DNA of 64,000 bases from Mycolicibacterium tokaiense (GTDB lineage: Bacteria; Actinomycetota; Actinomycetes; Mycobacteriales; Mycobacteriaceae). Within the stretch, counting starts at the first letter, position 1. Every line of letters starts with the position of its first letter. Where the stretch lies: NCBI RefSeq assembly GCF_010725885.1, contig NZ_AP022600.1:5084001-5148000 (forward strand), given 5' to 3'. The notes under the pieces were generated by a model. It was not told the origin of the DNA. It worked only from the letters and a program-made list of their open reading frames with translations, and ran no database searches. Below are positions 9,001-63,924 of the stretch, one piece after another. The position numbers and the translations under genes were made by a program.

Positions 9001-11891
9001 TCGACCGCGGTCACCGGCGCCCGATACGAGCCGGCATCGCCGAACTCGGGCGCGGGTAAGGCCCGGCGGTCGAGTTTGCCGTTCACAGTCAGCGGCAATC
9101 TGTCGATCACCAGTACCGCAGCGGGCACCATGTATTCGGGCAGCCGCCGGGCCAGCGAGGCGCGCAGGACACCCGGGTCCGCCGCGCCCACAACGTAACC
9201 CACCAGGCGCTTGTCGCCGGGGCGGTCTTCACGGACCACGACGACGGCCTGGTCCACCCCGTCCATGCCGTCCAGAGCTGCCCGGATCTCACCCAGCTCT
9301 ATTCGGTAGCCGCGGAGCTTGACCTGTTCATCGGCTCGCCCCGCGTACCGCAGTTCGCCATCGGCTCCCCACCACACCAGGTCCCCGGTGCGGTACATCC
9401 GGGTTCCCGGTTCGGTGGCGAACGGGCATGCCACGAACCTGGTGGAGGTGAGCCCGGCGCGGCGCCAATAGCCTGCTCCTGCACCGGTTCCCGCGACGTA
9501 GAGATCGCCGATGACGCCGGGTGCAACCGGGCGCAGCCAGTGGTCCAACACGAAGAATGCATAACTCGGCAGCGGTAGACCGACCGGACTGAGATCGGAT
9601 TCGGCATCGATGTCGGCGTCGACGATCTCGCGAAACGACGCGTGCACGGTGGTCTCGGTGGTGCCGTACAGATTGAACAACCTGGGTAGGGCCGGGTGAT
9701 GTTGTCGCCATGTGCGCAGGCGTTGCGGTTCGAGCGCCTCACCGGCGAAGACCACCGCCTGTAACGCCACAGCGCTGCCGTGGTCGGAGGTCAGCGCGTC
9801 GGCCGTCTGCAGCGCGTAGAACGCCGATGGGGTTTGGCTGAGCACCGTGACCTTCTCTTTGGCCAGCAGCGCGTGAAAATCCTCGGGTGCGCGGGCCACC
9901 GGTTCGGGCACCACCACCAGACGTCCGCCGTAGAGCAGGGCGCCCCAGATCTCACACACCGAGACGTCGAAGGCAAGCGAGTGCCACTGCGACCACACGT
10001 GCTGCGCCAGCGGCATGCGGGAGTCCATGGCCTCCAGGAGGCGAGTCACGTTCTGGTGGGTGATCGCGACGCCCTTGGGGGTGCCGGTGGTGCCCGAGGT
10101 GTAGATCAGGTAGGCGATGTCGTCGGGTTCCGGGGTGGGCAGGACGGCGGTGGATCGCAACCCGACGACATCCTGCAGCACACTGATGTCGATGACGGGC
10201 AGCTCGCCGCCGTCGAGGCGGCCGGCCAGGGCCGAGGTCGTGATGGCCAGGGTGGGAGCGGCGTCACCGAGGACGAACTCGCGGCGCGCGGCCGGCACCG
10301 CGGGGTCGATGGGCACGTACGCCGCGCCGGCTTTGAGCACTGCAAGGATCGCGACGATGGCGTCGGCCGATCGGGGCAGCAGCAGTGCCACCCGCTGTCC
10401 CCGCTGCAGGCCATGATCGATCAGCAACTGGGCCAACAGGTTCGAGGACTCGTCGAGCTGCTGATACGTCCAGGACCCGTCGGCTCCGGTGACCGCTACC
10501 GCGTTGGGGCACTGTCGCGCCTGCTGGCCGAAACGGGCGGGAACAGACGCGGGTGCGGTAGTGGGTGCGGAGAGGGCCTGGCGGTTGCCCCAGTGGTCCA
10601 GACGGTCCCGCTCGAGCGGGCCCAGGACGTCGATCTGCGAGAGCACCTGCCCGGGGCCGTCGGCCATGCCCTCGAGCAGCCGGGTGAACCGCGCCATGGT
10701 GGCGGTGATGCCGGCGGAGTCAAGGATCTCGGTGTCGAATTCGACCCGCAGTGTCAGACCGTCGCCGGGGATGGCCTGGACAGCAAGCGGGTAGTGGTTG
10801 TACTCACGGTGGGTGACGTCGGTGACCATCAGGCCGTCGGTCCCGGTCAGCCGGGCCGGGTCCATCGGGTAGTTCTCGTAGACGAAGAACGCGTCGAACA
10901 GTCGGTCGTGCCCGGTGACGCGGTGGATCTCGCTCAGCGCCAGGTGGTGGTGGTCCAGGGTGGCGGTGTAGGCGTTCTTCAGCTGACCCAACAGCTCACC
11001 GACGGTGGTCCGCGGCGTCGCCGTCGCGCGCACCGGCACGGTGTTGATCAGCAGGCCCACCATGGATTCCGCGCCCGGTACCTCCTGTGGCCGGCCGGAG
11101 ACCGTGGTACCGAACACGACATCGCTGTGCCCGGTCAGGGTCATCAACAGCGCGGCGAAGGCGCCCTGGAGCACGGTGCTGACGGTGGTGTGGCACGTTC
11201 GCGCCAGTTCCCCCAGTGCGTCGGTGACGGCGTGGGGTACCTGCACGTGCAGGACATCGCGGCGCCCGGCGGCGCCGTGGGAGGCTGCCCCGAGCAAGGT
11301 CGGGCTGTCGAGGCCACCGAGCACCTGCGCCCACGCCGCGCGCGCCGCCTCCAGGTCGCGACGTCCCAGCCAGTCGACGAACCTGCGGTACGGCGGTGCC
11401 GGCGGCAGCCGCTGGCCGTAGTACCCGGCGAACACTTCACCCAGCAGGATCGGCAGGGACCAGCCGTCGAGCACGATGTGGTGGTTGGTCATCAGCAGCC
11501 GGTGCTGGTCGGTCGCGGTGCGGATCAGCGTTGCACGGACCGGCGCTCGATCGCCGAGGTCGCACACCGCAGCGCGTTCGGCTGCACAGACCTCGGCGAT
11601 CCGGTCCTCGGCGTCCGCCCCGGTGATCTCGAGGTACTGCCAGGGCAACACCGGGTCCCCGGGAATGATCTGGACCGGTTCGGCGAACTTTCCCGAGAAC
11701 CGGGCCGCCAGATGCGGGTGCCGCGCCAGAACGGCCTCCACAGCGTGGCGGAGTCGTTCGGGGTCCAACGGACCGGATAGACAGATACTCAACTGCACTG
11801 CGTACAGATCGTCTCCGCCGGAGTCGGTCTGGGCGTGGAACAGCAGCCCCTGCTGCAAGGGAGTCAGGGGCAGGACGTCAGCTATCCGCAT
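1..11891 (-). CDS. Multimodular NRPS, second lipopeptide synthetase (3' end beyond window)
   Basis: Nonribosomal peptide synthetase elongating the acyl-aminoacyl chain made by the upstream one-module NRPS. The frame is open from the ATG at 11891 to the left edge (at least 3963 codons), so the C-terminus is missing. Domains: C1 (HHIVLDG from residue 137), A1, T1 (Ser993), C2, A2, T2 (Ser2046), C3, A3, T3 (Ser3114), E (HHLVVDG from residue 3286), C4 (HHLLLDG from residue 3772). C1 and C4 start with [14 protein letters not shown], the form found after an E domain (D-donor); C2 and C3 have the other form (PLSFxQxRLWF), fitting an L-donor. Pocket residues read by eye: A1 DVCSVALVHK (no clear match), A2 DFWTLGAVYK (between Phe and Thr codes), A3 DFWSVGMVHK (Thr-type). 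The ATG overlaps the previous stop by 14 bp, implying translational coupling. By position it corresponds to GPL Mps2, but the module order is not the classical one. Confidence 0.93.
1051..4110. repeat. Direct repeat of NRPS A-T-E region, copy 1 (partner 11945-14992)
   Basis: A mosaic of near-identical stretches, offset 10894 bp up to at least 2500 and 10882 bp from about 3460 on (a net 12-bp indel between). Identity is very high at about 1051-1780, 1895-2280, 2490-3160 and 3456-3765, interrupted by divergent patches. Within 2500-4200 the plus strand is strongly skewed: 3061-3120 counts C 34, G 7, A 16, T 3. It covers the E domain, carrier and A domain of module 4. Confidence 0.9.
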
Positions 11892-14800
11892 ACTGCCGCT
11901 GCAGCTCGTCGATCTGCTGCTGACTCAGACCGGCGCCGATGTCGGAGGGGGTCAGTCCCCCGCCGCCCCCGTGGACGTGGGCGCAGATCCCGGCCAGGGC
12001 GTCGAACCACAGCTGGCTGAGTCGGTTCACTTCGGCGTGGCCCAGCGCCGACGGCGCCCAGGTCCAGCCGGCTCGCAGCCGTGGGCCGGCGTCGGTGTCG
12101 ACGGTGCCCGCGTTCAGTTCGACGGTGTGCATCAGCGGCATCGGGATGGCGGCCGCGGCACCGGTCACCGCCCACCCGTCGGGGCGGATCTCCCAGATGT
12201 CACCGGACACGTCTGTCGCACCCGCACCGAGCCGACCGAGGTAGTTGAAGCCGATCACCGGGTCGGGTCCGTCGAGGTCGACGTCGTCGTTGAGGTAGCG
12301 CAGCAGTCCGTAGGTCAGCCCGTCCGGTTGGGCGCGCAGTTGCTCCTTGAGGTTCTTGATCACCGACCCCAGGCCTGCACCCCCGGTACTCACCTGCGTC
12401 CAATCCAGATCGATGATGTTCAGCGCCACCGGGTATTTCGTGGTGAACCAGCCCACGGTGCGGGACAAGTCGATGTCGTCACCCAGCCCGGGGAGATCGT
12501 CGTGGCGACCGTGGCCTTCGGCGTCGATGAGCACCGAGCCGGTGCCCAGGAATTCGCGCAGTGCCATCGCGTAGGCGATCATCAGGATGTCGTTGATGCC
12601 GGTGTGGAAGGCGGCCGGGACCTCACCCAAGAGCAGCCGGGTGGTCTCCACATCCAGTTCCACCGACAAGCTGCCAGCGTTGGCGTGCGTATCCACCGCA
12701 GGTTGCGTGCTGGGCAGCACGGGCGGCACCGCGAGGACCCTGCGCCAGTGCGTCGCCTGCTCGACCACTTCGGGATGGCGGGCGTATTCGGCGAGCAGCG
12801 CGGCCCAGCGGGTGAAGGACGTGCCAGGTTCCGGAAGGACGATCGGTTGCCCGCTGGATCGCTGGGCCCAGGCCAGGTTGATGTCTTCGAGCAGGATGCG
12901 CCAGGACACCCCGTCGACCACCAGGTGATGGGCGATCACCACCAACTGCCCCACCACCGGTACCCACAGTGCACTGACCATGACCCCCGCCGCGGGATCC
13001 AGCCGCGCCCGCGCCCGGGCCACCACCTCAGCAGAGAGCGAATCAACCGTCTGCAGACACGACCCGGCATCAACCGCACCGACCTCGGCCACGGTCAACA
13101 CCCAAGCACCACCGTCGGATTCATCAACCCGCAACCGCAACATCGGATGCCGATCCAGCACCGCCTGCAAGACCGCGAGGACGTCTGCTTCATCCACGGT
13201 TGCAGGTGCGTCGAGCACCACGGTCTGGTTGAACTCGTCGACCGGCCCCGGCACCTCGCGCAGCCATCGCATGATGGGGGTGGCGAGCAGCGAGCCGGTT
13301 CCGTCGTCACCGGCGTCGCCGTGACTGTCGGACACCACGGCCACCCGGGCCAACCTGGCAACGGTCTGCTCGACGAAGACGTCTTTGGGTCGGCATCGCA
13401 CCCCGGCGGCCCGGGCCCGTGCGACCACCTGCATCGACAAGATACTGTCCCCACCCAACTCGAAAAACGACTCGTCGACCCCCACCCGCGCCACACCCAA
13501 CACCTGCGCAAAAATCCCCGCCAGAATCTCCTCCACCGCATCAGCAGGCCCCCGATATCCCTCGGCACTCTGATACTGCGGCACCGGCAACGCCCGCCGA
13601 TCCAACTTCCCATTCACCGTCAACGGCATCGCCTCGACCACCACCACCGCCGAAGGCACCATGTACTCCGGCAACCGAGCAGCCACCGCCGCGCGCACCA
13701 CCGCAGGATCAACAGCACCCGTCACATACCCGACCAACCGCCGATCCCCCGGACGGTCCTCCCGCACCACCACCTCAGCCTGCTCAACCCCAGCCACATC
13801 ACTGAGCGCCGCCACAATCTCACCGAGCTCGATCCGATAACCGCGGATCTTGACCTGCTCATCCGAACGCCCCAGATACCGCAACTGCCCATCCACACCC
13901 CAACACACCACATCGCCGGTGCGATACATCCGAGCACCCACCGGACCGAACGGACACGCCACAAACCGACCCGACGTCAACCCCGCCCGACCCACATACC
14001 CATCCGCCAACCCCACACCCGCCACATACAACTCCCCCGCAACCCCCACCGGCACCGGCCGCAACCAGCCGTCAAGAACAAAAAAAGCCAAATGCCGCAA
14101 AGGAACACCAATGGGGCTGACCGCACTCGCCGCATCCGCGGCAACGATCTGGCGCAGCGACGCGTGCACCGTCGTCTCCGTGATCCCATACATGTTCAAC
14201 AGTCGCGGCGAATCGGGGCGCCCGGCGAACCAGCGTCGAAGTCGCCGCGGCTCCAGCGCTTCGCCGCCGAACACGACCGACTCGAGGGCAAGGCGTTCCC
14301 TGTCTCCGCCGGCGTCCTGCAGTGCGTAGAACGCCGACGGAGTCTGACTCAACACCGACACACGCTCAGAAACCAGAACCTCCAGCAGATCCTCCGGCGA
14401 GCGCACCACCTCATCCGCGACCACCACCACCCGACCACCGAACAGCAACGCCCCCCAGATCTCCCACACCGAAAAATCAAACGCCAACGAATGACACTGC
14501 GACCAGACGTGTTCGGCCAGACCCATCTCCCGGTCCAACGTCTCCAACAGTCCCAACACATTCCGATGCGGAACCGCCACCCCCTTCGGCGTACCCGTCG
14601 TCCCCGATGTATAGATCACATACGCCGTGTCAGCAGAATCCACCGCCGGCAATGTCACAGCTGGGGACGACCCCCCGGAATCGGCGACGTCGAAGACCTC
14701 GATAGCACACCCGGACATCGACGGCGCCAATTCAGCAGTGGTCACCACCACCACCGGAGCGGCATCAGCCACCACAAAATCCCGCCGCGCCGCAGGCACC

Positions 14801-16425
14801 GCCGGATCGATCGGCACGTAGGCGCCGCCCGCCTTCAGAATGGCCAGCAGTGCCACCACCGCCTCGGCCGACCGTGGCAACACCAACGCCACCCGATCAC
14901 CTCGACACACGCCCCGATCAACCAGCCTGCGGGCCAACCGATCCGACGCCTCATCCAACTCGCCATACGTCATCGCAGCGCCGTCGAACGTCACGGCTGC
15001 CGCGTCGGCGTCGAACCGCACCACCGACTGAAACACCGATACCAGAGAGTCGCCGTCCGAAGCTGTCAGCGAGGCCAGCCCCGCTCGATTGCCCCACACA
15101 TCGAGCGCAGTCAGTTCGTCGGCAGCGAGGACGTCGATGGTGGACACCCGGCGGGCGGGGTCCGCGGTCATGGCAACCAGGACCCGTTGCAGCCGTTGGG
15201 CCAACTCACCGGTGTCGCAACCGGAGAACAGCTGGCCGGCGCCGAGAGTACTGAGCTGCAACTCCTCGCCCACGGCGTAGAAGATGATCCCGAAGCCGCC
15301 GACAAAGCCGGAGTTGGTCATCGACGCTGACGTGGACACTCCCGCGAACTCCAAGGAAAACGCCAGCGGGAAGAAGTCGACCACCACCCGCTTCGGTGAC
15401 CATGCCGGGTCGTGGGCGTGCGCTCGGCGCTCCAGCGCATGCACCGGGAAACGCTGGTGCTGCAGGGTTTCCCGGATTCTCTGGTCGACATGCGCACAGA
15501 ATGCCTGGACAGTTGCCCAGGGCTGCGCGTCGATCACCAGGGGCACCACACCTGCGGTCATGCCCGGTAGCGTCTTCGATATCGGTTCGGTACGCCGGCT
15601 GACCGGGAAGTCCAGCACCAGATCGGTGCCGTGGGTGCATTGCGCCCGGGCCATCAGCGCGCACGCCGCGGTGAGCACAGATGACCGAGGAATGTTCCAG
15701 ACGTTCGCCAGGTCGTCCACTCGCCGGATCACCGAGGGGTCCAGGCGGACAGGCATTGATTGCCAACTCGGATCACGTTCTACAGAGCCGTCTTTCGCGG
15801 GTTGCGCGTTGTTGTCGACAGGCAGGTGCCGGGTCCAGTACGCCTCGTCGGATCGGAAGTCCGGGGAGTCCTCGTATGCCGACTCGATGTCCACCAGGTC
15901 CTGCAGCGACCCGAAGAAGTGCGCAGGGATCGGCTCACCGGTGACCAGCGCGGAGTACACCGCAGCTACCCTGTTGCCGATCAGTCCGATTCCGGCGGCG
16001 TCGATGACGATGTGATGAAAACAGCAGAACAGCTGGAATTCGGCAGCACCAGTCTGGAACAGGCCGAATCGAAAAAGCGGACCGGACAGCGGCATCGGGG
16101 TGCGCTGAATCTCCACGGCGGCCAGATGGGCATCGCCAACCGGGTCCGCCGCCGACGTCAGGTCCCGGACGTCGAGCTCGATGCTCGGGTAGTCGACGAC
16201 GCGTTGCATCACCCGGCCGTCCACCTCGCAGATCGAGACGCGCACCGGCTCGGCCTCGTGGATGACACGGTGGATTGCCCATTCCAGGGCCTCCCGGTCG
16301 AGGTGGCCCTCGAACTTCACCAGCAGACCGATCTGCCAGTCCGTACCCGAATGGCCGGTTTCCTGCGCCAGCCAGATGTCGAGTTGCGCGCGTGTCAGTG
16401 GCCGCGCGTGTGCATCACAGTCCAT
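11878..16425 (-). CDS. One-module NRPS initiating the lipopeptide (starter C-A-T-E)
   Basis: 1515-aa initiating peptide synthetase. Domains in order: an N-terminal condensation domain of lipo-initiation type (residues about 1-430; motif HHIVIDA at 137-143, so the usual final Gly of HHxxxDG is Ala), an adenylation domain (about 460-950) with pocket code DFWSVGMVHK, typical of threonine, a carrier domain with GGDS Ser994, and an epimerisation domain (HHLVVDG from residue 1166; [10 protein letters not shown] near the end). Predicted product: N-acyl-D-(allo)threonyl thioester, passed to the next NRPS. ATG 16425 lies 21 bp after mbtH. Its A-T-E half is nearly identical in DNA to module 4 of the next gene. 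It occupies the place of GPL mps1, but that protein is multimodular in M. smegmatis while this one has a single module. Residue identity is inference from the code. Confidence 0.93.
11945..14992. repeat. Direct repeat of NRPS A-T-E region, copy 2 (partner 1051-4110)
   Basis: The equivalent A-T-E region of the initiating NRPS. It carries the same C- and A-rich plus-strand skew in about 13385-15000 and the same Thr-type adenylation pocket. Divergent patches at about 13171-13375 and 14056-14337 show that conversion tracts are discontinuous. Confidence 0.9.
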
Positions 16426-16446: not shown

Positions 16447-16677
16447 TCACCTGTTGCGAGCTCCGTCCGTTGCCAGCCTGTCGCGCAGACTCTTCGGTCG
16501 GATGTCGGTCCAGTTCTCTTCGATGTATTCGAGGCAACTCGCACGGTCGGTCTCGCCGTGCACGATGTGCCACCCGGGCGGTACCTCAGCAAACACCGGC
16601 CACAGGCTGTGCTGGTCTTCGTCGTTGCGCAGCACATAAAAGCGACCAGTCTCGTCGTCGAACGGGTTGTTACTCAC
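16447..16677 (-). CDS. mbtH: MbtH-like NRPS chaperone
   Basis: 76-aa MbtH-family protein, the small partner that binds adenylation domains and is needed for their solubility and activity. The family signature is complete: NPFDDE near the N-terminus, SLWPVF, the [10 protein letters not shown] segment and [10 protein letters not shown]. The start is GTG at 16677, preceded by CTGGAG four bases away; the ATG two bases upstream is out of frame. It lies 21 bp before the initiating NRPS and is presumably the first gene of the mbtH–NRPS–NRPS transcript. A KstR-like palindrome sits about 30 bp upstream of the start. Confidence 0.95.
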
Positions 16678-18108: not shown

Positions 18109-18861
18109 TCACCGCGCGGCCGGGGCAGCTGCCAGCAGGGTGTCCAGGTAGCGCGGCGGCTTCAGGTTCAACAGATGCCTGCGGTCTGCCTTCAGGTCGG
18201 CGTAACTCAGCGCCGCAACCTGCTCGGGCGAGTAGGACAGCGTGCTCTCGGGTCGCCCGCGACGGACGAAGCCGACACCCTGGTCGCATTTGAGCACCCC
18301 GACGACGAGATCGGGTCGCGTGCTGCGCAAGTGCACGATCGACTTCCAGACGTCGCCGTTCCAGAGTCCGATCACCAGCGGGCCCTTCTGCTGGGCGACG
18401 AAGTCCTCCCACGACTCCGCGCGGCGGCCCGCCAGCTCGAACGCCGGGTTGCAGTCGTGCAGGAAGATCACCCCGTCCTCGCGCAGGTGCCGAAGCGTGT
18501 TCTCGACGTCGCGCACCACCTGCTCGTAGGTGTGCAGACCGTCGATGAGCGCAACGTCGACAGGGTGGCGCTCGAGCAGATCGGCCTTCTCAGCGAAGAA
18601 TTCATCACTGGTGGTCTCGATGAAATGCGTGGTACGACCACGCCGCTGGGCCTGCGCCCGGGTACGGTCGGACATCCTGAACGCCGGGTCCACAGCAATC
18701 TTGATATCGGCGTTGATCCGCGAAAAGGCCTGTCCCCGCGAAACTCCGATCTCCAAATAGACCGGGCTGCAGCGATTTTCGAGGGCCCGCGTGACCGCCC
18801 TGATCCTGTTGGTACCCGGCAAAGCGTCCACCAGGGCGACCAGCCCGCTGTTGATGCCCAC
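18109..18861 (-). CDS. Class I SAM-dependent methyltransferase (Methyltransf_24 type)
   Basis: 250-aa predicted methyltransferase with the SAM-binding motif I LEIGVSRGQ followed by the acidic loop AVDPAF, and a later LIDGLHTYEQV / FLHDCNP pair characteristic of the Methyltransf_24 family. It probably O-methylates a sugar hydroxyl or the peptide/lipid part of the neighbouring NRPS product. The frame is open upstream to 19083, but that would overlap the divergent gene at 19058 and adds a non-conserved tail. GTG 18861 is preceded by GGAGAGG seven bases away, so I choose that start. It lies 16 bp upstream of the glycosyltransferase, same operon. Confidence 0.75.
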   Translation of the reverse strand: MGINSGLVALVDALPGTNRIRAVTRALENRCSPVYLEIGVSRGQAFSRINADIKIAVDPAFRMSDRTRAQAQRRGRTTHFIETTSDEFFAEKADLLERHPVDVALIDGLHTYEQVVRDVENTLRHLREDGVIFLHDCNPAFELAGRRAESWEDFVAQQKGPLVIGLWNGDVWKSIVHLRSTRPDLVVGVLKCDQGVGFVRRGRPESTLSYSPEQVAALSYADLKADRRHLLNLKPPRYLDTLLAAAPAAR

Positions 18862-55900: not shown

Positions 55901-56157
55901 AAGCCCGGTATGGGCAAGGTGATCCCGGCCAGGTCAGCATCAGCAGCGATGTACCCGCCGGTGGCCGAGGCGACACGCAGTCCGGCGGTGCGACTGGCCT
56001 GCAACGCAGCGGGATCCACCCCCCGCCAGTGGTCCCGCGGCGTTGGTGACAGCAGGCTCTGACCGGCGAGTGTGGCACGGAACAGCGCCTCGGGTGAGGT
56101 GGCTCCGGGCAGGACGCAGCTGCGCCCGACGATGGCGACGGGTTCGAAATCGCTCAC
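49909..56157 (-). CDS. pfaC: PUFA-synthase-type PKS subunit (KS-CLF-AT-DH-DH)
   Basis: 2082-aa iterative polyketide/fatty-acid synthase subunit of the Pfa (polyunsaturated fatty acid synthase) class. Order: active KS (DAACASS, Cys173; CHATGTP; GNLGHT), a KS-like chain-length factor lacking the Cys, an acyltransferase (GLSSG, Ser906), a Pro/Ala-rich linker, then four hot-dog units forming two FabA-like dehydratases; the catalytic halves are at about His1599 (YDGHFKNDPCMPG) and His1979 (KAHFFQDPVQPG). Tandem FabA-type DHs and a KS-CLF pair are diagnostic of PfaC. Having an AT in the same chain resembles Schizochytrium/myxobacterial arrangements rather than Shewanella. GTG 56157 overlaps the pfaA stop (GTGA). 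No ACP, KR or thioesterase is present. Confidence 0.88.
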   Translation of the reverse strand: MSDFEPVAIVGRSCVLPGATSPEALFRATLAGQSLLSPTPRDHWRGVDPAALQASRTAGLRVASATGGYIAADADLAGITLPIPGFAQLDPLVHWLAYCAQRALDSPVAEPGTGLIVGNLSYPSASATAFVESVWSGEGDVDPRNRFNSGLPVQLVAGAMQMTGPAFALDAACASSLYAIKLACDALHDGAADLMLAGGINGADDLFLHLGFTSLQALSPSGRSRPFHAAADGLVPSAGAALVALRTVVDAQRRGDQILGVITGIGLSNDGRQSGFLAPAVSGQARAMSAALEQAGLGPSDIDYVDCHATGTPLGDATELESIMSTYGEVPLRLGALKGNLGHTITVSGAASLINVLSAMQAGTTPPVLCDNPIRALGDTPYQLSTTAAAWDGPLTRAAVSNFGFGGNNAHLIVESHAPTRRACAPTRLFRGDIVVCGLGVLTGDAADAESFRRRALGTPAAATPMQSVSLDLAGLGFPPVELHASLSQQTAMLAAAAQALSQVTTDPERTGVIVGMGCDATIARQRLRVVHADDDGWLLANTDSAPQLTADAVVGTMPNIPANRIHAQRDFRGFGFTVSSEELSAVTALRIAARALHSGELDAVVAGAVDMCCERAHQSAAEAVQTGAGAEPGDAAVAFVLKRRADAEAAGDPIIAVLDTAGDSAGAETNTAAERFGRTHAAGAAVEVAARAVALRSRVRVDSAGAQPAPGGVRSHVSIESIGGRTDGVTLTAVDAPQPWTVAAVPMIERYAAADRRELRGRLVAGNPGGTGPVRCSLVAERTSTLDTQRQMVVHQLDAGQVPSGPGVAFADGPIAGELAFSFTGAAAAYPGAGRDLLLAWPEIGDALAARLPGVGDLAAAMYGADVTTLDPRAQLTGCAVVCQSHAEFSRAVLGLNPTAAIGLSSGETNAMLAFGVWRDLEEMLAEIEASGMYGDQLTGRCAVAAADWGLGDRPAPWECWRITAPKAQVEAALSTEDRAYMTIVQAPDDCVIGGDPAACRRVIEATEGAVAIPLGLDMVIHCSAMAPFADTWRRIHRRRTHEAPGVRFYSNAHNRAYAPTADTAADAITRQALEPIDFPATVLQAWHDGVRVFVEHGPRGILTAAVGKILGDRPHVAVALDSQERRGLRALAESVSTLWVHGVEVDVDAVDARMARLRELSASTSQPGRAITVPAHWPDIVSVPETSQKDTMPAPDPALIQAMPPAPAQPTPVALPTAEVVVHQRPAAPAALGDRMAAALNLVTAAGAAQAHFVERQARAHQDFLAMRAEMVAMATGRSAPPPDVPAPPVVPPVAAAPIASPPAAHPVPPAPLWNRAQLETLASGAISEVFGPGFAELDRYPRLVRMPEPPLLLADRVMSIEGEPGTMGTGRIVTETDVDPAAWYMHNGRMSPGVVIESGQADLLLASWLGADFSNRSERVYRLLGCDLTFMGELPRAGDTLRYDIHIDGHATTGDTRLFFFHYDCYIGDRLMISVRNGQAGFFSDDELAQSDGVLWNADTDAPREGSRRDEPPCVTTKTSFGRADLDAFVDGRAYACFGAGFERAAAHTRTPATPGGRLRLFDEIAEFDPHGGPWGRGYLRATSEVPTDAWFYDGHFKNDPCMPGTLMADAATQALSFAMAAYGFTVERDGWRFEPVPDELARFVCRGQVIPDWDHHLDYEVFIEEIIDGPTPTVYAALLCRSDGFKVFHCRRFGMRLVPDWPMPQAPGPAHILANGKDVRGDHGALLACARGKPSDAFGALYAPFDGTRRAPRLPDEPYHFVSRISSIDCPPGIPTPGGTVVAEYDVPEAEWYFADGRCGAVPLSVLIEILLQPCGWLSSYMGFAANRSDDVVFRNLDGNDVVLHKAAGVGTLKVTSTLTRFAEGGGSTIVFFDVVCTQGVDVVMTMKTAFGFFSPEALKNQVGLRVAPGALQALSVTAPVTMGYGELGGSPELAQNRLQVIDRLKFWPGGGEAGLGRLVAEYDVHPEAWFFKAHFFQDPVQPGSLGLEAMQQAARATARLAGLAGEGSVFEPVAVGQSFNWRFRGQVVPTNKRTRSEIEILATASDDAGTLIVFKGAFWVDDLCIYDTTGMGVRIIV

Positions 56158-59100
56158 GCCGAGCTGTCCGCCCCGCTGCCGGCGACGTAGAACTCCACCG
56201 CGGCGAGTTCGGCCACCAACTGTCCGTCGCCGGACTCCAGCACGATGTCGAAGTCGACCTGCTTGTCGCTGACCGGGTACGCGGCGAGGCGACACCGCAG
56301 TGCGGAAGCCGCATCGACCGGCCGGTGCAGGACCGCGCGCCCGATGCGCACCGGCAACACCAGTGGCCGTCCGTGCACACCTGACCAGAGGATGCCCAGC
56401 TGCAGCCCACCGTCCACCGCAGCTGCGTCGATCGCCCAATTGTGCTGTGGCCAGCCCAGTTCGTGCAGTCCCTTGACCGTGGCGGTCCCGCCACCGGGCC
56501 CAACGGTGCCGAGTTGGTCGAGGGCGGCGAAACGCGGTCCGTGGAACAACCGGTCGGTGTAGGCCTGCGCCACGCTCATCGGCCAGTCGGCCCCGGACGT
56601 CTCGGGCACGAACAACCTGGGCACCGCGCTGTCCTCGGGAACCACCGCGGCACGATAGCGCTTGCGTCCCTCGCCGTCGGTGACGGTGACGGTGTAGGCC
56701 GGCCCGGCGGGTTCGAAATCCAATGTCAGTTCCTGCTTCTCGCGATCGGCGAAGGTCACCCCCGAGAGCACCTGGAAGTCCTGCACCACACACCGCTCAC
56801 CGGCGAGCAGGCCTTCGGCTGCGCGCAGCATGGCATCCACCACCATCACCACGGGCACCACCACGCGGCCACGGACCTGGTGATCCACCAGCATCGGCAG
56901 GATCTCGGTCGAGACGTCCCAGTCCAGGCGGGCGGTCCGCAGCCGTGGCTGCGCGGGTGCGGCCACCACGATCGCGGTGGCCGGTGATCGGCGCAGTGCA
57001 TGGTCGGCGAAGAACTGAGCGCCCTCCTCGAGGGGAATGACATCGACGCCCGAGCTCAGGAATCGACTCTTGAGCGTTGCGTCCACCATTCCGCCGTCCC
57101 AGGGTCCCCACCCGAAGGCACGGACCACGCAGTCGCAGCCCCGGCTGACCGACTCGCGCGCAGCGATGGTCTCCAGGGCGGCGTTGGCGGCGGCGTAGGC
57201 CGACTGCCCGGGGTTGCCTGCCCGCGCAGCGATCGAGGAGAACAACGAGATGAAGCGCAGATGGTCGGTGGCTGTTGCGGAGAGCAGCGCCTCGGCACCC
57301 ATCACCTTGGTGGCGAACACCCGGGTGAACTGGGCCTCATCCAGGTCCTCCAGGCGGCGGTCTGCCAGCACTCCCGCACCGTGCACCACTCCCACGATGG
57401 GACCAAGGTCCTGCCGGACTTGGTCCAGTACCCGCCCGAGCTCAGCCCGGTCGGCGATGTCGACGGCGAAGTAACGCGCCGTGGTGCCCTGCTGCTCCGC
57501 GCCGGCGAGCGTGTCGCGTACCTCCTGCTCGGCCAGCAGGGCCGCCGCCTGGGAGCGAGCTTCCGGCAGACCCATCTGCTGACCCCGCTCCCGGGCGGAC
57601 GCCACCAGGGCCGTGGCGATCTCGGTCAGAGTAGTGCCCTGGGTGCGTAGACCGGCGGGCTGCTCGCGCAGGGCGGTGCGGCCCAGGAGCGCCAGTTGCA
57701 GGCCGTGGCGTTGTGCCAGGGCCAGCGCCGAACGGGCGGTCACGCCCCGCGCGCCGCCGGTCACCACGACGACGCCGCCCTCGTCGACGCTGATGTTCTC
57801 CCCCATGGGCGACATCTCGGCGTCATCCACGGCGACCAACCGGCTGCCGTCATCACGCAGCGCCACCTCCACGCCGCTGCCCCCGGCCAACAGTTCGGCG
57901 GTGAGTCGTTGTGCGTCCAGGGTTTCCATGTCGACGGCCCGGACCGATCCGTTGGGCCATTCCCATGCCGCGGTCTTGGCCAGGCTGGCCACCCCGAGGG
58001 CAACGTCGGATTCGCGGAAGCGGCCGCCGGTGGACTGCACGGTGACGAACAATCGTGAATGCCCGTTGCTGGTGGCGACGCTACGGGCGGCGCGGAACGC
58101 GCGCAGGTGCATGTCGACGCCGTCCTGGGCGCTGTTCACCGGCCCCAGCGCGGCGAGGCTGATGACGGCGCTCGCCTGCTCCGGCACTGTGTCGACCACC
58201 CGTGCCTTGATCTCATGGGACGTCATCACCTGTTCGAGTTCGGCGGCGAACTCCGGGTCCTCATCGGTGATGAACACCTCACCGTCGCGCAGGCCCGCCA
58301 TGGCGAGCCCGCTCGGCGGGGCGCTGCGGAACTCCACCTCGGTGGTGCGCAACCCGCCCGACGGGGTGGGTTCCCCCGAATCATGCTGTTTTTCTTGTTC
58401 TTCGGTGGATTCCTCGTCTGTTCCGAAGCCACCCAGGGTGTCGACCACGTCCTGCAGCGTGCGCAACCGCGCCAACTCCGACGCAGGCACCTGCGGAGCA
58501 CCCGGGAACCGCGACTGCAACGCCGCCAAGATCTCGACCTGCTTGATCGAATCGATCCCCAGCTCGGCCTCCATCTCCATCTCCAGGCCCAGCATCGCCA
58601 CCGGATAACCCGTCTTCTCCGACACCACCGACAGCACCACATCCCCCACCGGCTCACCCACCACCGGCTCACCCACCACCGGGGTCCCCGCCGGCACCAC
58701 AACCGCAGCGCCAGAACCGAAATCCGCCAGCGAATCCACCACGTCCTGCAGCGTGCGCAACCGCGCCAACTCCGACGCAGGCACCTGCGGAGCACCCGGG
58801 AACCGCGACTGCAACGCCGCCAAGATCTCGACCTGCTTGATCGAATCGATCCCCAGCTCGGCCTCCATCTCCATCTCCAGGCCCAGCATCGCCACCGGAT
58901 AACCCGTCTTCTCCGACACCACCGACAGCACCACATCCCCCACCGGCTCACCCACCACCTGCACCGGTGCCGCGGTCGCAGGTTGCGGCGTGGGGGGTGT
59001 GCTCACCGGCGGCGCGGGCGGCTGCGGCGCCAGAACAGGAGGCGCCGCGAAAGAGGGCATGGCGACCGGAACGGCGTCCATCGGTGCGGTGACGGGCGCG

Positions 59101-62100
59101 AGCGCCGGCGCGGCAGTACCTTCCGGAGCCCCGTTGCCGACGATCTGCGCCATCATCTGCGTCGCCATCCCCAGGAAGGCCTGATGGCTCTCGGCCACCG
59201 CGTCGAGGTACCGCTCGTGCTGGTCGGCAGTTTCCTTCTGCAGGCGATCGATCACGCTCCAGGCATCCTGGGACAGCGGTGCGTGCGCCGCTGTCGGGAC
59301 GGTCACCGCGGCTGGAGCAACGGGCTTTGGCACGGGGGGCTGGGACACCTGGGTGTGGGTCAGCGGAGCCGCCGCCATCGGCTGCACCTCCGCGATCGGC
59401 GCCACTGCGGCGGCAGCCGGCGCCGACCGGGCTTTCACAACGTCACGCTTGGGAGTGATCACCGCTGCGCCGTCCGCCGGCGGATACGGTTTGCCAAGGT
59501 TCGCTCCTCCCACCCTGACGGCATGTGCCGGCGGTGGATTGTGCTTGTCGGGGATCTCGTAGGACTCGAACAGCGCTGCCAGGTCCAACGCCACGCCGTC
59601 AGCAGCCAGAGCCGCCAGGCCACGGTGCCAGCCGCGCAGTCCGTCGACCTTCGGATCGTCGAGCGCCACAGCTTTGTGTGGCGTGCCATCCAGGATCTGG
59701 TCGACCAGCCGGGTCAGCACGCGGCCCGGGCCCACCTCGATGAACCGCGTGATGCCGTCGCGGGACATCGCCTCGATCATCTCCCGGAACCGCACGGGCT
59801 GACGGACCTGATCTCCGAGTTGGTCGGCCACCGACTGCCCGTAGGGTTGCGCTGTCGCGTTCGCGTAGACCGGGAATGCGGCCGCACCCAGTTCCAGCGT
59901 CGTGAGGTACTCCGTCAGCGGTGCCGAGCTCGACGCCACGATGGGCGAGTGGAACGCCGAGGCCACCGGCAGGCGCACGGTGGTCAACCCCGCCGCTCCG
60001 GCCGCGGTCTCGACCCAGCTGATGTCTGTGCGATGTCCGGCCACCACCACCTGGGTGGGGGCGTTGTCGTTGGCGATGACGAGCGTTCCGATGTCCGCCG
60101 GGGCCGAATCCAGCAGTGCGCGAACGGTGTCGGCGCCGGCGGTGACGGCGAGCATCGCGCCGTCCTGCCCGCTGCCGGCCTCTGCCATCAAAAGTCCACG
60201 CGTGCGTGCTGTCTCGGCCAGCCGGTGCACCGGCAGAACGCCCGCGGCGGCCAGCGCCGTCACCTCGCCGAAACTGTGTCCGGCCGCAGCCTCGGCGGTG
60301 ACACCCAACAGATCCAGCAACGCCAGCTGCGCCCGGCTCGTGGTCGCGATCGCCGGTTGCGCATTCTCCATGGCAGTCAACGCTGCAGTGTTGGCCTCAG
60401 ACACGCTGGCGTCAAAGGCGGGTTCGGGGAACACCACGCGATGCAGATCGGCCAGGTCACCGGCCAGGTCGTCCCATACCCGCAGTGCTGCCGGGAAGGC
60501 CAGCGCCAGATCGGCGCCCATGCCGACGTACTGACTGCCCTGCCCGGGAAACAGGAACGCGGTACGGCCTGCTCGCGGCTGCCCCACACCGACCGCGATA
60601 TCGGGGTCTTTCAGCTGCGTCGCCGTTCCCTGCGCCAGCGCACTGCTCAGTCGCTCGATGAGCCTACGCAGACTCGCGGTGTCCGCGGCGACCAGCCCTG
60701 CGCGAGCCGGGTGGGTGGAGTCGAACTCGCGGGCACAGTCGTAGGCAATCCGGGCCAGGCTCTCCCCGGCATCGAGCGCTGCCGCCACGGTGTCGAGTCG
60801 CGGCCCCAGCTCGGCTTCGGTGCCGGCGCTGATCAGCACGAGTTCACTCGGCAGCGTGCGAAGCCGCTTGGCCCGTTGCGCGCCGCGGTACTCCTCGAGC
60901 GTCACGTGGAAGTTGCTGCCGCCAAAGCCGAATGAGCTGACACCGGCACGCCGGGGCTGATTGCCGGAGCGAATCCAGGGGCGTGTCTGGGCGTTGAGGT
61001 AGAACGGCGTGTCGTCCAGCTCCAGTGCCGGGTTGGGCCGGTCCACCTTGAGAGTTCCGGGCAGTGTGGAATGCTGCAGCGCCAGTATCGCTTTGATCAA
61101 CCCGGCAGCGCCCGCTGCAGCCTTGGTGTGGCCGATCTGGGACTTGACCGAACCCAACGCGCACCGCCCCGCCGGGTCGGTGAACACGGACTTCAAGCCG
61201 GCGAACTCTGCGACGTCGCCCGCCTTGGTGGCGGTGCCGTGCGCTTCGACGAGTTCGACGGTGCTGGGTGCGTACCCGGCGCGCTCGTAGGCCCGCCGCA
61301 GTGCCTTGGCCTGTCCCTCTGAGCGGGGGGCGTACACGCTGGACGCCCGGCCGTCCGACGACGACCCCAGACCCCGGATCACGGCGTGGATCACGTCACC
61401 GTCACGCTCGGCATCGTCGAGTCTCTTGAGCGCCAGCATGCCCACGCCTTCGCCGATGATGGTGCCATCAGCGCCGTCGGAGAACGGTCTGCAGTCGCCA
61501 GTCGGCGAGAAGGCCGGGGTCTTGGAGAAGCACATGTACATCATGACGTCGTTGAGGGCATCAACACCGCCGGTCAGCACCAGATCGGACTCGTGCAGAT
61601 ACAAGCGGTGCAGGGCGGTCTGCAGCGCCGACAGCGAGCTGGCGCACGCCGCGTCCACCACGAAGTTGCTTCCGCCGAGGTCCAGCCGGTTGGCCACCCG
61701 GCCGGCGACGACATTGCCCAGCAGCCCCGGGAAGGTGCTCTCCTGCCACGCCGGGTAGTTGTCGGCGATGTCCTGGCAGATGGTGTCGGCCTCGTCTTCA
61801 GCCAACCCGTTCTCCAGCAGTGCTTTACGCCAGACCGGGCGCTGCATTCGTGAGCCCATCTGGACCACGAGTTCGGTGGTGGATGCCACCCCCAGCACCA
61901 CGTCCACGCGGTCGAGGTCCACGTCGGCTCCCCCGCGCATCGCCTCGTCGAGAACCTTCCTGGCGGCGATGAGCGCCAGGATCTGCGCTGAATCAGTCGA
62001 GGGCAGCGCATTGGGGGGCAGGCCGAACCGGACCGGATCGAACAGCACCGGGTCGATGAAACCACCACGCTTGCAATAGGTCCGATCAGGAACTTTGGGG

Positions 62101-62276
62101 TCCGGATCGAAGTAATCCTCGATCAGCCAGTGGGAGGGAGGTACATCACCGATGGCATCCCGGCCACCGATCACGGTGCGCCAATAGCCGTCCAGCCCGG
62201 GCTCGCCCGGATAAATGGCCGTCATCCCGATCACGGCGACCGGGGTGGCTGATGCGTGCTTTTCGGGTTCGGTCAT
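56154..62276 (-). CDS. pfaA: PUFA-synthase-type PKS subunit (KS-AT-ACP-ACP-KR-DH)
   Basis: 2040-aa Pfa-type synthase subunit. KS (DAACASSLSAL, Cys211; EAHGTATKAGD; KSQIGHTKAAAG), malonyl-type AT (FPGQGSQYVGMG; GHSFGE, Ser668), a Pro/Ala linker, two tandem acyl-carrier domains each with LGIDSIKQVEIL (Ser1145 and Ser1243), a ketoreductase (VVVTGGARGVTA and GNPGQSAYAAANAALE), and a C-terminal hot-dog/DH-like domain (VRGRVVVPVVMVVDAML). The order KS-AT-ACPn-KR-DH is exactly that of PfaA; two ACPs is low compared with the usual four to nine. ATG 62276 has GAGAGG upstream; the open frame extends to 62366. It lies 28 bp downstream of pfaD. Confidence 0.9.
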   Translation of the reverse strand: MTEPEKHASATPVAVIGMTAIYPGEPGLDGYWRTVIGGRDAIGDVPPSHWLIEDYFDPDPKVPDRTYCKRGGFIDPVLFDPVRFGLPPNALPSTDSAQILALIAARKVLDEAMRGGADVDLDRVDVVLGVASTTELVVQMGSRMQRPVWRKALLENGLAEDEADTICQDIADNYPAWQESTFPGLLGNVVAGRVANRLDLGGSNFVVDAACASSLSALQTALHRLYLHESDLVLTGGVDALNDVMMYMCFSKTPAFSPTGDCRPFSDGADGTIIGEGVGMLALKRLDDAERDGDVIHAVIRGLGSSSDGRASSVYAPRSEGQAKALRRAYERAGYAPSTVELVEAHGTATKAGDVAEFAGLKSVFTDPAGRCALGSVKSQIGHTKAAAGAAGLIKAILALQHSTLPGTLKVDRPNPALELDDTPFYLNAQTRPWIRSGNQPRRAGVSSFGFGGSNFHVTLEEYRGAQRAKRLRTLPSELVLISAGTEAELGPRLDTVAAALDAGESLARIAYDCAREFDSTHPARAGLVAADTASLRRLIERLSSALAQGTATQLKDPDIAVGVGQPRAGRTAFLFPGQGSQYVGMGADLALAFPAALRVWDDLAGDLADLHRVVFPEPAFDASVSEANTAALTAMENAQPAIATTSRAQLALLDLLGVTAEAAAGHSFGEVTALAAAGVLPVHRLAETARTRGLLMAEAGSGQDGAMLAVTAGADTVRALLDSAPADIGTLVIANDNAPTQVVVAGHRTDISWVETAAGAAGLTTVRLPVASAFHSPIVASSSAPLTEYLTTLELGAAAFPVYANATAQPYGQSVADQLGDQVRQPVRFREMIEAMSRDGITRFIEVGPGRVLTRLVDQILDGTPHKAVALDDPKVDGLRGWHRGLAALAADGVALDLAALFESYEIPDKHNPPPAHAVRVGGANLGKPYPPADGAAVITPKRDVVKARSAPAAAAVAPIAEVQPMAAAPLTHTQVSQPPVPKPVAPAAVTVPTAAHAPLSQDAWSVIDRLQKETADQHERYLDAVAESHQAFLGMATQMMAQIVGNGAPEGTAAPALAPVTAPMDAVPVAMPSFAAPPVLAPQPPAPPVSTPPTPQPATAAPVQVVGEPVGDVVLSVVSEKTGYPVAMLGLEMEMEAELGIDSIKQVEILAALQSRFPGAPQVPASELARLRTLQDVVDSLADFGSGAAVVVPAGTPVVGEPVVGEPVGDVVLSVVSEKTGYPVAMLGLEMEMEAELGIDSIKQVEILAALQSRFPGAPQVPASELARLRTLQDVVDTLGGFGTDEESTEEQEKQHDSGEPTPSGGLRTTEVEFRSAPPSGLAMAGLRDGEVFITDEDPEFAAELEQVMTSHEIKARVVDTVPEQASAVISLAALGPVNSAQDGVDMHLRAFRAARSVATSNGHSRLFVTVQSTGGRFRESDVALGVASLAKTAAWEWPNGSVRAVDMETLDAQRLTAELLAGGSGVEVALRDDGSRLVAVDDAEMSPMGENISVDEGGVVVVTGGARGVTARSALALAQRHGLQLALLGRTALREQPAGLRTQGTTLTEIATALVASARERGQQMGLPEARSQAAALLAEQEVRDTLAGAEQQGTTARYFAVDIADRAELGRVLDQVRQDLGPIVGVVHGAGVLADRRLEDLDEAQFTRVFATKVMGAEALLSATATDHLRFISLFSSIAARAGNPGQSAYAAANAALETIAARESVSRGCDCVVRAFGWGPWDGGMVDATLKSRFLSSGVDVIPLEEGAQFFADHALRRSPATAIVVAAPAQPRLRTARLDWDVSTEILPMLVDHQVRGRVVVPVVMVVDAMLRAAEGLLAGERCVVQDFQVLSGVTFADREKQELTLDFEPAGPAYTVTVTDGEGRKRYRAAVVPEDSAVPRLFVPETSGADWPMSVAQAYTDRLFHGPRFAALDQLGTVGPGGGTATVKGLHELGWPQHNWAIDAAAVDGGLQLGILWSGVHGRPLVLPVRIGRAVLHRPVDAASALRCRLAAYPVSDKQVDFDIVLESGDGQLVAELAAVEFYVAGSGADSSA
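58444..58665 (-). repeat. Tandem ACP repeat (partner 58738-58959)
   Basis: 222-bp direct repeat, offset exactly 294 bp (98 codons), no mismatch seen. It encodes most of each acyl-carrier domain. The plus strand is C-rich although coding is on the minus strand (58861-58920: C 29, G 9). Looks like a unit prone to expansion or contraction. Confidence 0.9.
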
Positions 62277-62304
62277 GACACCTCTCATAGGCCGGACGAC
62301 AACA

Positions 62305-63924
62305 TCATCCGAGGGGACGCGGTCGGAAGTCGAAGGTGTGAGCCGGCATCGCGACACCGGCGGCACGTAGCTGCCCGGCGCGTGTCACGGTCGCGGCGCC
62401 TTCGAGCAGGTTGAGCGCAATCTGGCGGACCGAGCGCGTCTCGACGGGCTCGAGAAAAGAACCGCGCACCCAGTCGTTGAACGCCCCCATCGCCGGACCG
62501 CACCAGATCTGATAATCAGCACGCCGGTCGGCGTGGCCGTCGCGGGCCCACTGCGACCCCATGAACAGGTACCACCGAAACACCAGCGCCATCAGATGTT
62601 TGGGATCGGCCCGGGCGCGCTCCACTTCCCGGGGGTCGGCACGGGTGAAAAACGCCTCGGTCTCGGCCCAGATGTCGTCCACGTCGCGGCCCAGCACTGT
62701 CTTTTCCAGAGTCCTCAGCTCATCGATCGGGGCGTCGTCGAACGACGTGTAACGCCGGTAGAATTCACCCAGGCGTTGTCCGCGCTGGGCGAACATGGTG
62801 CCGCGCTTGAGTACCTGCACCGTCACCCCCATCTCGAACATGTCCGAGGCGGGCGCCATTGCCACGTCGGTGGACTGGGCCAGGGCCAGCAGGGCCCGCG
62901 CGTCAACGGACAGTCCGCTTTCCACAGCGGACTGGTTCACCGAGCCGGTCAGCACGTAGTCGGCGCCGCAGGCGAACGCCGCCGCCACCGCCGCGGGTGT
63001 GCCGATCCCGCCGGCAGCGCCAACCCTGGGCAGCACCGCATACCCGTGCTGGGCGGCGATCTCGTCGCGCAAGCCGATCAGCCGAGGCAGGAGAACGGTC
63101 AACGCGCGGTTGTCGGTATGCCCACCCGAGTCCGCCTCGGCGGTGATGTCCTCGGCGATCGGGATCCCGGCAGCCAAGTGGGCTTCATCGTCGGTGAGCC
63201 GGCCCTCGGCGACCAGCGCCCGCAGTATCGGCTCGGGCGCGGGTGAGAGGAAGTGGCGCGCCACCTCGTCCCTGGAGACTTTGGCGAATATGCGTCCTGC
63301 GCGCTCGATCTGACCGTTTGAGTTGCGTCGCAACCCTTTCGCGGCATAGAGCACGATGGCCGGGGTGAGGCGCATGAACGCCGACGCCGAGACGTACCGC
63401 ACCCCGAGGCGGTGAAAGAGGTCGACGGTGGCGAGTTCGAGCCGGTCATCGTGGATGTTGTGGATCAGGTTGGCACCCCATCCGCCTACACCGGGTCCGA
63501 GGGCGGCGGTGATCTCATTGACCCCCACCTCGATGGCGCCGAGATCCAGTCCTGCGCTTCCGAAGAAGGCCATGACCCCGGCGCGAACCCCTTCGATGGT
63601 CATCCCCGCGGTGGCGATACCGCGCGCCATCTCTCCGATGACGTAGGGGAACCGCACCCGGTGGGCGGTGGTGAAAGCCCTTCCTCCCAGCCATTCGGGA
63701 TACAGAGCAGGCAGGACCGCCAGCACCTCGTGGCGCATGATCTCCGGCGTCAGCAGACCCGCGTCATCGAGCAGCACGGCTCGCGGCCCATGGCTGGAAC
63801 TCACCACAGCCACCGGCCTGCGGATCGCCGTGAGCGCCTCGGTGACGTCCGTTCGATCACGCGATGCCGCTGAGGCCTCATTCACATAATCAGACGTAGT
63901 CAGCGCTCCCCGCACGGTCGGCAC
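62305..63924 (-). CDS. pfaD: PfaD-type trans-acting enoyl reductase
   Basis: 539-aa FMN-dependent enoyl reductase of the PfaD/2-nitropropane-dioxygenase-like family, the discrete ER that serves PUFA synthases and related trans-AT/secondary-lipid systems. TIM-barrel motifs: EADSGGHTDNR, RVGAAGGIGTP and YVLTGSVNQ; the C-terminal helical region KHLMALVFRWYLFMGSQWAR is typical of PfaD. Start is GTG 63924; a second GTG three codons on is possible. First gene of the pfaD–pfaA–pfaC transcript. A -10-like TAAATT ends 11 bases before the GTG, which would give an almost leaderless mRNA. Confidence 0.9.
   Translation of the reverse strand: MPTVRGALTTSDYVNEASAASRDRTDVTEALTAIRRPVAVVSSSHGPRAVLLDDAGLLTPEIMRHEVLAVLPALYPEWLGGRAFTTAHRVRFPYVIGEMARGIATAGMTIEGVRAGVMAFFGSAGLDLGAIEVGVNEITAALGPGVGGWGANLIHNIHDDRLELATVDLFHRLGVRYVSASAFMRLTPAIVLYAAKGLRRNSNGQIERAGRIFAKVSRDEVARHFLSPAPEPILRALVAEGRLTDDEAHLAAGIPIAEDITAEADSGGHTDNRALTVLLPRLIGLRDEIAAQHGYAVLPRVGAAGGIGTPAAVAAAFACGADYVLTGSVNQSAVESGLSVDARALLALAQSTDVAMAPASDMFEMGVTVQVLKRGTMFAQRGQRLGEFYRRYTSFDDAPIDELRTLEKTVLGRDVDDIWAETEAFFTRADPREVERARADPKHLMALVFRWYLFMGSQWARDGHADRRADYQIWCGPAMGAFNDWVRGSFLEPVETRSVRQIALNLLEGAATVTRAGQLRAAGVAMPAHTFDFRPRPLG

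Follow-up and report, generated by a model that had tools for sequence, protein, structure and literature searches.

What does a synthase of polyunsaturated fatty acids (PUFAs) do inside a locus built like those for mycobacterial glycopeptidolipids (GPLs)? The question is posed by a 64,000-nucleotide stretch of the Mycolicibacterium tokaiense genome (bases 5084001-5148000 of a single contig of 6.33 Mb; hereafter the window), where pfaD, pfaA and pfaC lie in one locus with genes for two nonribosomal peptide synthetases (NRPS1 and NRPS2), glycosyltransferases and MmpL proteins. A note made earlier from the sequence alone (the original prediction) had proposed that the Pfa synthase supplies the acyl chain of a lipopeptide. 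We consider it fairly probable that Pfa makes an acyl chain, itself probably polyunsaturated, for a GPL-like glycolipopeptide that MmpL proteins export, and that in sister species a polyketide synthase (PKS) of the phleic-acid type does so instead. A Pfa-made lipopeptide acyl chain is the best reading because NRPS2 accompanies a close PfaD in 37 of 40 genomes, sister loci carry a PKS of the trehalose polyphleate (TPP) type, and an NRPS follows pfaC directly in M. gastri; what tells against it is a second chain-making system in the same locus.

The three Pfa genes overlap end to end:
49909..56157, reverse strand, PfaC, 2,082 amino acids, KS-CLF-AT(PfaB-family)-DH-DH
56154..62366, reverse strand, PfaA, 2,070 amino acids, KS-MAT-ACP-ACP-KR-DH-like
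62305..63924, reverse strand, PfaD enoyl reductase, 539 amino acids, TIGR02814

PfaD scores 597.6 bits with TIGR02814 (cut-off 449.25) and PfaA 1237 bits with TIGR02813 (cut-off 1010.1). PfaA carries the KS motifs DAACASS and EAHGT, the MAT motif GHSFG, two near-identical ACPs and a KR. The pfaC reading frame is open from 49909 to 56793, its real start being the GTG at 56157. The protein contains two ketoacyl-synthase stretches (a KS with Cys and His motifs, and a second, CLF-like one), an AT with the motif GLSSG, whose PfaB-family match of 62.1 bits lies under that model's cut-off of 144.3, and two FabA-type dehydratase stretches, both with His and Asp/Glu motifs. Because this PfaB-type AT lies inside PfaC, pfaB, which the original prediction did not name, is fused into pfaC. 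The pfaD-pfaA-pfaC set is complete, as predicted: the features of a bacterial PUFA synthase are all present (KS-MAT-tandem ACP-KR in PfaA, KS-CLF and DH-DH with the PfaB AT in PfaC, and PfaD), and the product is probably a polyunsaturated acyl chain. The closest named relatives of this PfaD belong to Mycobacterium and Mycolicibacterium. In four relatives (G014, G171, G288 and G150) the PfaC match splits in two near residue 1,290, in the stretch that separates the AT part from the DH part.

The peptide-forming genes, mbtH and two NRPSs as predicted, lie at the left of the window:
3..11891, reverse strand, continuing to genome position 5083415 (= L001:17416), NRPS1, 4,158 amino acids, C-A-T-C-A-T-C-A-T-E-C-T (Pfam and motif map)
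11878..16425, reverse strand, NRPS2, 1,515 amino acids, C-A-T-E with a TIGR01720 end
16447..16677, reverse strand, MbtH-like protein, 76 amino acids (PF03621, E 1.9e-27)

The E domain of NRPS1 was assigned from motif and position. The A-domain codes, read by eye, are DFWSVGMVHK (NRPS2, its last K assumed), then DVCSVALVHK, DFWTLGAVYK and DFWSVGMVHK. Codes one and four are similar to DFWNIGMVHK, which we take to be the Thr code. Pfam showed no reductase or thioesterase domain in either NRPS (reductase sought at E 1e-5). NRPS1 ends (window 3-500 and L001:17416-19875) in C-T, and its last T lacks an A domain ahead of it. An additional module, with a code beginning DVQS, is seen in NRPS1 of G009, G150 and G288.

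Co-occurrence of pfa with the NRPS genes, the check that the original prediction had suggested, was surveyed in 396 genomes of the genus, drawn evenly. PfaD matched at E 1e-50 in 72 of them: 41 have a close PfaD (76-100% identity, two partial), 29 have a second family only (50-56%), and two have others (41%, and a 59% fragment). The NRPS2 search took in 40 of the 41 close-PfaD genomes (G252 omitted) and matched at E 1e-300 in 37; in G150, G023 and G218 NRPS2 is present only as variants of 54-58%. The two genes share a contig, 12-97 kb apart, in 23 of the 37, and the remaining 14 are draft genomes with pfaD and NRPS2 on separate contigs. The exceptions are two broken pfa sets and one incomplete genome. 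G259 has a close PfaD and no NRPS2 match in a genome that is 55% complete. In G004 (G004:C1:4610000-4629999) the PfaD match covers residues 321-539 only and PfaC is interrupted, and in G240 (G240:C1:1288331-1301241) the DH half of PfaC has no match in the 100 kb read. Of the 13 relatives tested, the 12 besides G240 all have this half, at 74-92% identity; G004 is among them, and in G009 the half comes in two pieces. In M. gastri (G218, the same as G398) the NRPS match begins ~30 bp past the end of the pfaC match, and in M. simulans, too, an NRPS comes directly after pfaC. The opposing case, pfa without NRPS, was found in the genus only as the decayed sets of G240 and G004, and outside it in two Gordonia genomes (L030, L031, L241-L245), with pfaD-A-C of the window's subfamily at 60-78%. 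PfaC of Gordonia G397 lies in an open frame of 2,213 amino acids, and a weak FadD-like gene (27%) stands beside pfaD in L030. A family-level draw of 201 genomes gave PfaD at 46-52% in 13 genomes of other genera.

The second mycobacterial Pfa family, seen at G142:C1:1668479-1694487 (L219-L220), has its own fatty acyl-AMP ligase (FAAL; 55%) and PKS (50%) adjoining, and no homologue of the window's NRPSs in the 60 kb read. It perhaps makes another undescribed lipid.

What stands in for Pfa where it is missing? In 16 of 18 loci from genomes without a close PfaD, a PKS of ~3,700 amino acids is encoded on the strand of mbtH-NRPS2, 1-3 kb upstream of these genes (G229, G133, G387, G248, G017, G096, G200, G258, G358, G284, G326, G392, G164, G260, G271 and G231); it was found in none of the 12 Pfa loci read. 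The copies are at least 79% identical to that of G229, which reads KS-AT-KR-ACP-KS-AT-DH-ER-KR-ACP; the G258 copy ends at the contig end. These 16 loci were picked by NRPS2 or ICMT matches before the alternative PKS was identified or searched across genomes, and it was first seen in five of them (G229, G133, G387, G248 and G017). Two more, G346 and G147, were included afterwards because they might be exceptions, which they are. Five further loci with the alternative PKS (G051, G058, G068, G188 and G207) were chosen because both matches lay together, and stand outside the count; G126, an 8.1-kb contig with FAAL, PKS and ICMT and no NRPS2, was not counted. NRPS2 matches at E 1e-120 in 244 of the 396 genomes, the 18 and five loci being those read among the ones without close PfaD. 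A search with the first 700 residues of the alternative PKS gave matches at E 1e-220 in 285 of the 396; the window's own genome has no match to the TPP-type PKS query at that threshold.

Apart from the synthase, the two kinds of locus have much in common. Five non-Pfa loci (G260, G229, G133, G387 and G248) were read over a sufficient length for this comparison. Common to them and the window are the gtfA, acyltransferase, epimerase and uronic-acid genes, the ICMT gene and those of NRPS1 and NRPS2; rml genes were unseen in them. NRPS1 aligns over its full length in non-Pfa loci as well. The first two A codes are exchanged relative to the window in four of five non-Pfa loci. The clearest swap is G260, where the TPP-type PKS is present, close pfa is absent, and the tylF, sulfotransferase-like, separate PapA-like, MFS, MmpL and monomodular PKS genes are as in the window. 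G260 also holds a second PKS copy, a paralogue 74% identical to the alternative PKS over its length, which adjoins a FAAL, a PE acyltransferase (NF041570 above cut-off), an MmpL and a PapA protein (6aef, E 2.4e-147); this neighbourhood is the gene set of a TPP locus.

Both kinds of locus also hold a second chain-making system. Left of the window lie a Pks2-like PKS (2,101 amino acids, KS-AT-DH-ER-KR-ACP; NCBIfam Pks2 3289.9 bits, cut-off 2400) and a FAAL most like FadD23 (PDB 8hd4, E 5.1e-216). Among the 12 Pfa loci, the Pks2-like PKS recurs at 62% identity or more in 11 and the FAAL at 65% or more in nine, two of the three loci without a FAAL match being cut by the edge of the DNA read; in CBMA 234 and OTB74 the pair lies a few kb from pfaD. 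Since this FAAL and PKS belong to the locus, although outside the window, the contrast that the original prediction drew with the usual Pks/FadD enzymes of GPL and TPP loci is incomplete. In G229, G248 and G387 FAAL, PKS and a PapA-like domain form one open reading frame of ~3,220-3,270 amino acids, where the window has three separate genes. In G229 (L192:2505-12272) this frame has 3,255 amino acids: FAAL, a methylmalonyl-type PKS module and the PapA-like C-terminal domain. The AT motif is VASH in the Pks2-like PKS, YASH in the fused FAAL-PKS and, in the alternative PKS, HAFH in each of the two modules; we take HAFH to mark a malonyl-type AT, and VASH and YASH the methylmalonyl type. These motifs are consistent with two kinds of chain. 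To judge by their genes, then, both kinds of locus combine a PKS that probably makes a methyl-branched chain with another synthase, one related to known makers of polyunsaturated chains. The molecule thus probably carries two lipid chains, and we infer that the Pfa chain is the N-linked one.

The following pathway would fit these genes. PfaD, PfaA and PfaC, whose domains are described above, would work iteratively and yield a long acyl chain, probably a polyunsaturated one. The first C domain of NRPS2, ahead of which there is no NRPS module, would accept this chain, which would acylate the first amino acid, read as Thr. NRPS2 and NRPS1 would then assemble a tetrapeptide, with E domains, placed by motif and position, at modules 1 and 4. 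Assembly would end at the C-T pair rather than at the reductase expected of classical GPLs, and the ICMT-family methyltransferase may cap the C terminus. A second, methyl-branched chain may come from the FadD23-like FAAL and Pks2-like PKS and be attached by a condensation-superfamily acyltransferase. The product would be decorated through the genes for rhamnose and uronic acid, the three glycosyltransferases and the methyltransferase, acyltransferase and sulfotransferase-like enzymes, and MmpS/MmpL would, by analogy with GPLs, export it. In sister species, the swap suggests, the phleic-acid-type PKS takes the role of the Pfa complex.

Several observations weigh against this scheme. Besides the second chain-making system, there is the gap of ~46 kb between pfa and NRPS2; it contains genes on the opposite strand, and the two therefore do not form a single operon. 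The two Gordonia pfa sets have no NRPS homologue in 60 and 40 kb downstream and ~10 kb upstream, and their genomes have no NRPS2 match above 44% identity. The draft genomes G346 (780 contigs) and G147 (700 contigs) have the NRPS, but the DNA read shows no close pfa and no alternative PKS beside it, and the PfaD search gave no match in either; their mbtH adjoins gtfA as in Pfa loci, with no PKS between. The alternative PKS does not occupy the position of pfa, and G260 lacks rml genes and showed no FAAL in its 100 kb. Lipid type changes once on the tree of NRPS2 (25 sequences), twice on that of gtfA (28) and three times on that of ugd (15), so the 16 and 12 loci are not 28 independent observations; on these trees the swap is one or a few events. 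Six of the 21 alternative-PKS loci come from genomes that also have a PfaD of the distant second family, which lies on a different contig.

How else could Pfa serve the locus? The alternative that survives best, although unlikely, makes the Pfa chain an O-acyl group, placed on a sugar or a threonine hydroxyl by PapA-like or AT3 acyltransferases, with the FAAL and Pks2-like PKS giving the N-acyl chain. PapA proteins move a polyketide chain onto a sugar in the TPP and sulfolipid pathways, and this background favours it, as does the layout here: the PKS and ICMT genes adjoin NRPS1, and pfa adjoins the MmpL genes. In the three sister loci with the fused frame, however, the PapA-like domain is joined to the FAAL and the methylmalonyl-type PKS, not to the alternative PKS, which lies directly upstream of mbtH-NRPS2. 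M. gastri and M. simulans, moreover, pair pfa with an NRPS and have no homologue of the window's glycosyltransferases in the 27 and 60 kb read.

A little less likely again is that the Pfa product is an intermediate, which the FAAL activates and the Pks2-like PKS extends by methyl-branched units before the NRPS. The recurrence of these two genes in the Pfa loci, their place a few kb from pfaD in CBMA 234 and OTB74, and the FAAL and PKS beside the distant Pfa family of G142 would all fit. Yet a FAAL-PKS is kept also without close pfa, though fused and with the PKS only 33-34% identical, and M. simulans has no Pks2-like PKS. We regard as improbable that Pfa makes a separate lipid, such as a membrane or storage lipid, and is a mere neighbour of the NRPS locus, as the 46-kb gap and the pfa sets without adjoining NRPS in G240 and the two Gordonia genomes might suggest, given the linkage in all 23 same-contig cases, the broken pfa in both NRPS-less mycobacteria of good completeness and the mutual exclusion with the alternative PKS.

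Returning to the Pfa-made lipopeptide tail, a wider claim can be put forward more tentatively, at somewhat short of an even chance: that these loci make undescribed polyunsaturated, sulfated, uronic-acid glycolipopeptides exported by MmpL, in which two unrelated synthases of polyunsaturated chains replaced one another and selection keeps the tail, not the enzyme. On that reading, the exchange of a bacterial PUFA synthase and a phleic-acid PKS paralogue for one another would mean that the tail itself is under selection.

Is this a classical GPL locus? Classical GPLs are made by two NRPSs, Mps1 and Mps2, of 2+2 modules, Mps2 ending in a reductase. In the window, by contrast, the NRPSs are split into 1+3 modules, E domains occur only at modules 1 and 4 and the end is a C-T pair; uronic-acid genes, a sulfotransferase-like gene and the Pfa synthase are added. 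Membership was rejected on the missing reductase and the different NRPS split. PF11139 (SfLAP), the presumed family of the GPL export protein Gap, matches three times in the genome, at its closest 1.4 Mb away from the locus. The likeness lies in the mbtH-NRPS, gtf, rmt, atf, rml and mmpS-mmpL-mmpL genes, shared with the classical locus of M. smegmatis and M. abscessus, one ~65-kb region in M. smegmatis whose product has an alaninol end (PMC1885439).

The TPP locus is MSMEG_0408-0412 (PMC10465359, PMC11633156), and TPP phleic acids are polyunsaturated (PMC11633156). Its PKS family stands in for pfa in the sister loci, and FAAL and a PapA-like transferase are common to both; the TPP locus as described in those texts has no NRPS among its genes and trehalose as acceptor, whereas the window uses Pfa. 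The TPP set pks-papA3-mmpL10-fadD23-PE is not found in the window locus: there is no TPP-type PKS match, and no NF041570 match among the subset of locus proteins searched.

Clade IV PUFA synthase-PKS-NRPS clusters were published in June 2026 from M. fortunisiensis TNTM28 and Mycolicibacterium sp. CBMA 234, with a related cluster in M. simulans FB-527 and no product (PMC13291983). They contain pfa-like, PKS, CAL, ICMT and TIGR01720-NRPS genes, with an intervening region of limited conservation (PMC13291983). The window locus resembles them in its pfa, FAAL/CAL and monomodular PKS genes, the ICMT between PKS and NRPS, and the TIGR01720 NRPS. TNTM28 (G049), CBMA 234 (L027) and another M. simulans strain (G023/L028) were among the relatives that we examined. 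The accessible cluster section makes no mention of glycosyltransferases, methyltransferases, AT3 acyltransferases, MmpS/MmpL, rhamnose genes or the swap with a TPP-type PKS; in a word count of the paper 'glycosyltransferase' occurs once and 'MmpL' not at all. The original prediction knew of no described mycobacterial lipopeptide made this way. That still holds for a product, but pfa-NRPS clusters as such are in print. A literature search mostly outside subscription papers gave no description of a glycosylated, MmpL-linked mycobacterial Pfa-NRPS locus beyond that partial account. In megapolipeptins the Pfa chain is the N-terminal unit of a lipopeptide, and the megapolipeptin and dioxanopeptin pathways resemble our scheme in that the nonribosomal peptide receives its lipid tail from a Pfa-type synthase; they belong to Proteobacteria, with pyruvyl transferase tailoring, and glycosylation or MmpL export goes unmentioned in the accessible text (PMC12964715). 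The hybrid Pfa-NRPS idea is therefore already known; what is new is the GPL-type setting and the exchange of the tail synthase.

GPLs and TPPs shape the mycobacterial surface, and TPPs are required for infection by phages BPs and Muddy (PMC10465359). If our reading is true, a GPL-like class with a Pfa-made tail would be a large unexamined part of the mycobacterial envelope (close PfaD in 41 of 396 sampled species, two partial, and the sister locus in at least 21 more), and the mycobacterial Pfa synthase gains a product. The natural swap would make the question 'why an unsaturated tail?' testable through the lipids of the two sets of species.

The locus as a whole spans ~80 kb and reaches beyond both window edges. 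That it is a single locus stands; the span of 11878 to 63924 first given to it left out NRPS1 on the left and further genes on both sides. To the left, the rest of NRPS1 is followed by the ICMT-family methyltransferase, the Pks2-like PKS and the FadD23-like FAAL; to the right come a conserved uncharacterised protein and rmlA-, rmlB- and fused rmlC-rmlD-like genes. All 32 locus genes occur in identical order in G056, at 73-93% identity, so a chance neighbourhood is ruled out. Rearranged versions occur in M. litorale F4 (G009), M. fortunisiensis (G049), M. rhodesiae JS60 (G288) and others. Every gene class of the original prediction was recovered by Pfam, NCBIfam or motif. The genes between mbtH and pfaC are:
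16815..18092, reverse strand, gtfA, GT28/EryCIII-type glycosyltransferase (Pfam; best homologue 62-82% in relatives)
18109..19083, reverse strand, methyltransferase (Methyltransf_24; Pfam)
19562..21769, forward strand, membrane O-acyltransferase 1 (AT3-SGNH; Pfam)
21666..23963, forward strand, membrane O-acyltransferase 2 (AT3-SGNH; Pfam)
23956..26082, forward strand, membrane O-acyltransferase 3 (AT3-SGNH; Pfam)
26096..27175, forward strand, nucleotide-sugar epimerase/dehydratase family
27172..28200, reverse strand, nucleotide-sugar epimerase family (frame open to 28740, epimerase domain from near 28160)
28230..29615, reverse strand, UDP-glucose/GDP-mannose 6-dehydrogenase family (uronic acid)
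29868..30692, forward strand, rhamnosyl O-methyltransferase (NF045824, 431.7 bits, cut-off 400; PF04989)
30689..32029, reverse strand, glycosyltransferase gtfB
32112..33821, forward strand, GMC oxidoreductase
35484..36509, reverse strand, Gfo/Idh/MocA oxidoreductase
36490..37308, reverse strand, TylF-type O-methyltransferase
37498..38811, reverse strand, glycosyltransferase gtfC
38848..39828, reverse strand, sulfotransferase-like protein (motif GRSGTS)
40043..41539, forward strand, condensation-superfamily (PapA/WS-DGAT-like) acyltransferase (motif SHYVIDG)
41561..43063, reverse strand, MFS transporter
43510..44118, forward strand, MmpS (PF05423, E 7.6e-48)
44028..46991, forward strand, first MmpL
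46995..49907, forward strand, second MmpL

The three predicted GPL-type glycosyltransferases are all of the GT28/EryCIII type, the three acyltransferases of the AT3-SGNH type, and the three methyltransferases begin at 18109 (reverse), 29868 (forward) and 36490 (reverse). The mmpS-mmpL-mmpL genes beside pfa were confirmed, MmpS by PF05423 and both MmpL by profile. The predicted sulfotransferase holds up as sulfotransferase-like: its Pfam match is weak (27.1 bits, cut-off 27.0) and a PDB search gave no match, and RSGTS is invariant in 10 of 10 aligned homologues. The product of the 40043 gene has no Pfam match at E 0.1 and no PDB sequence match. It was rejected as a complete unknown, its predicted fold being that of the condensation/PapA/wax-ester-synthase superfamily, and it is homologous to the C-terminal part of the FAAL-PKS fusion in sister loci. 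An open reading frame at 33845-35305, between the GMC and Gfo genes, has a sub-threshold PGRS match. Directly right of pfaD, a repeat-rich protein (L002:1487-3172) gave no match in Pfam and PDB searches and is kept beside pfaD in many relatives, at 41-83% identity.

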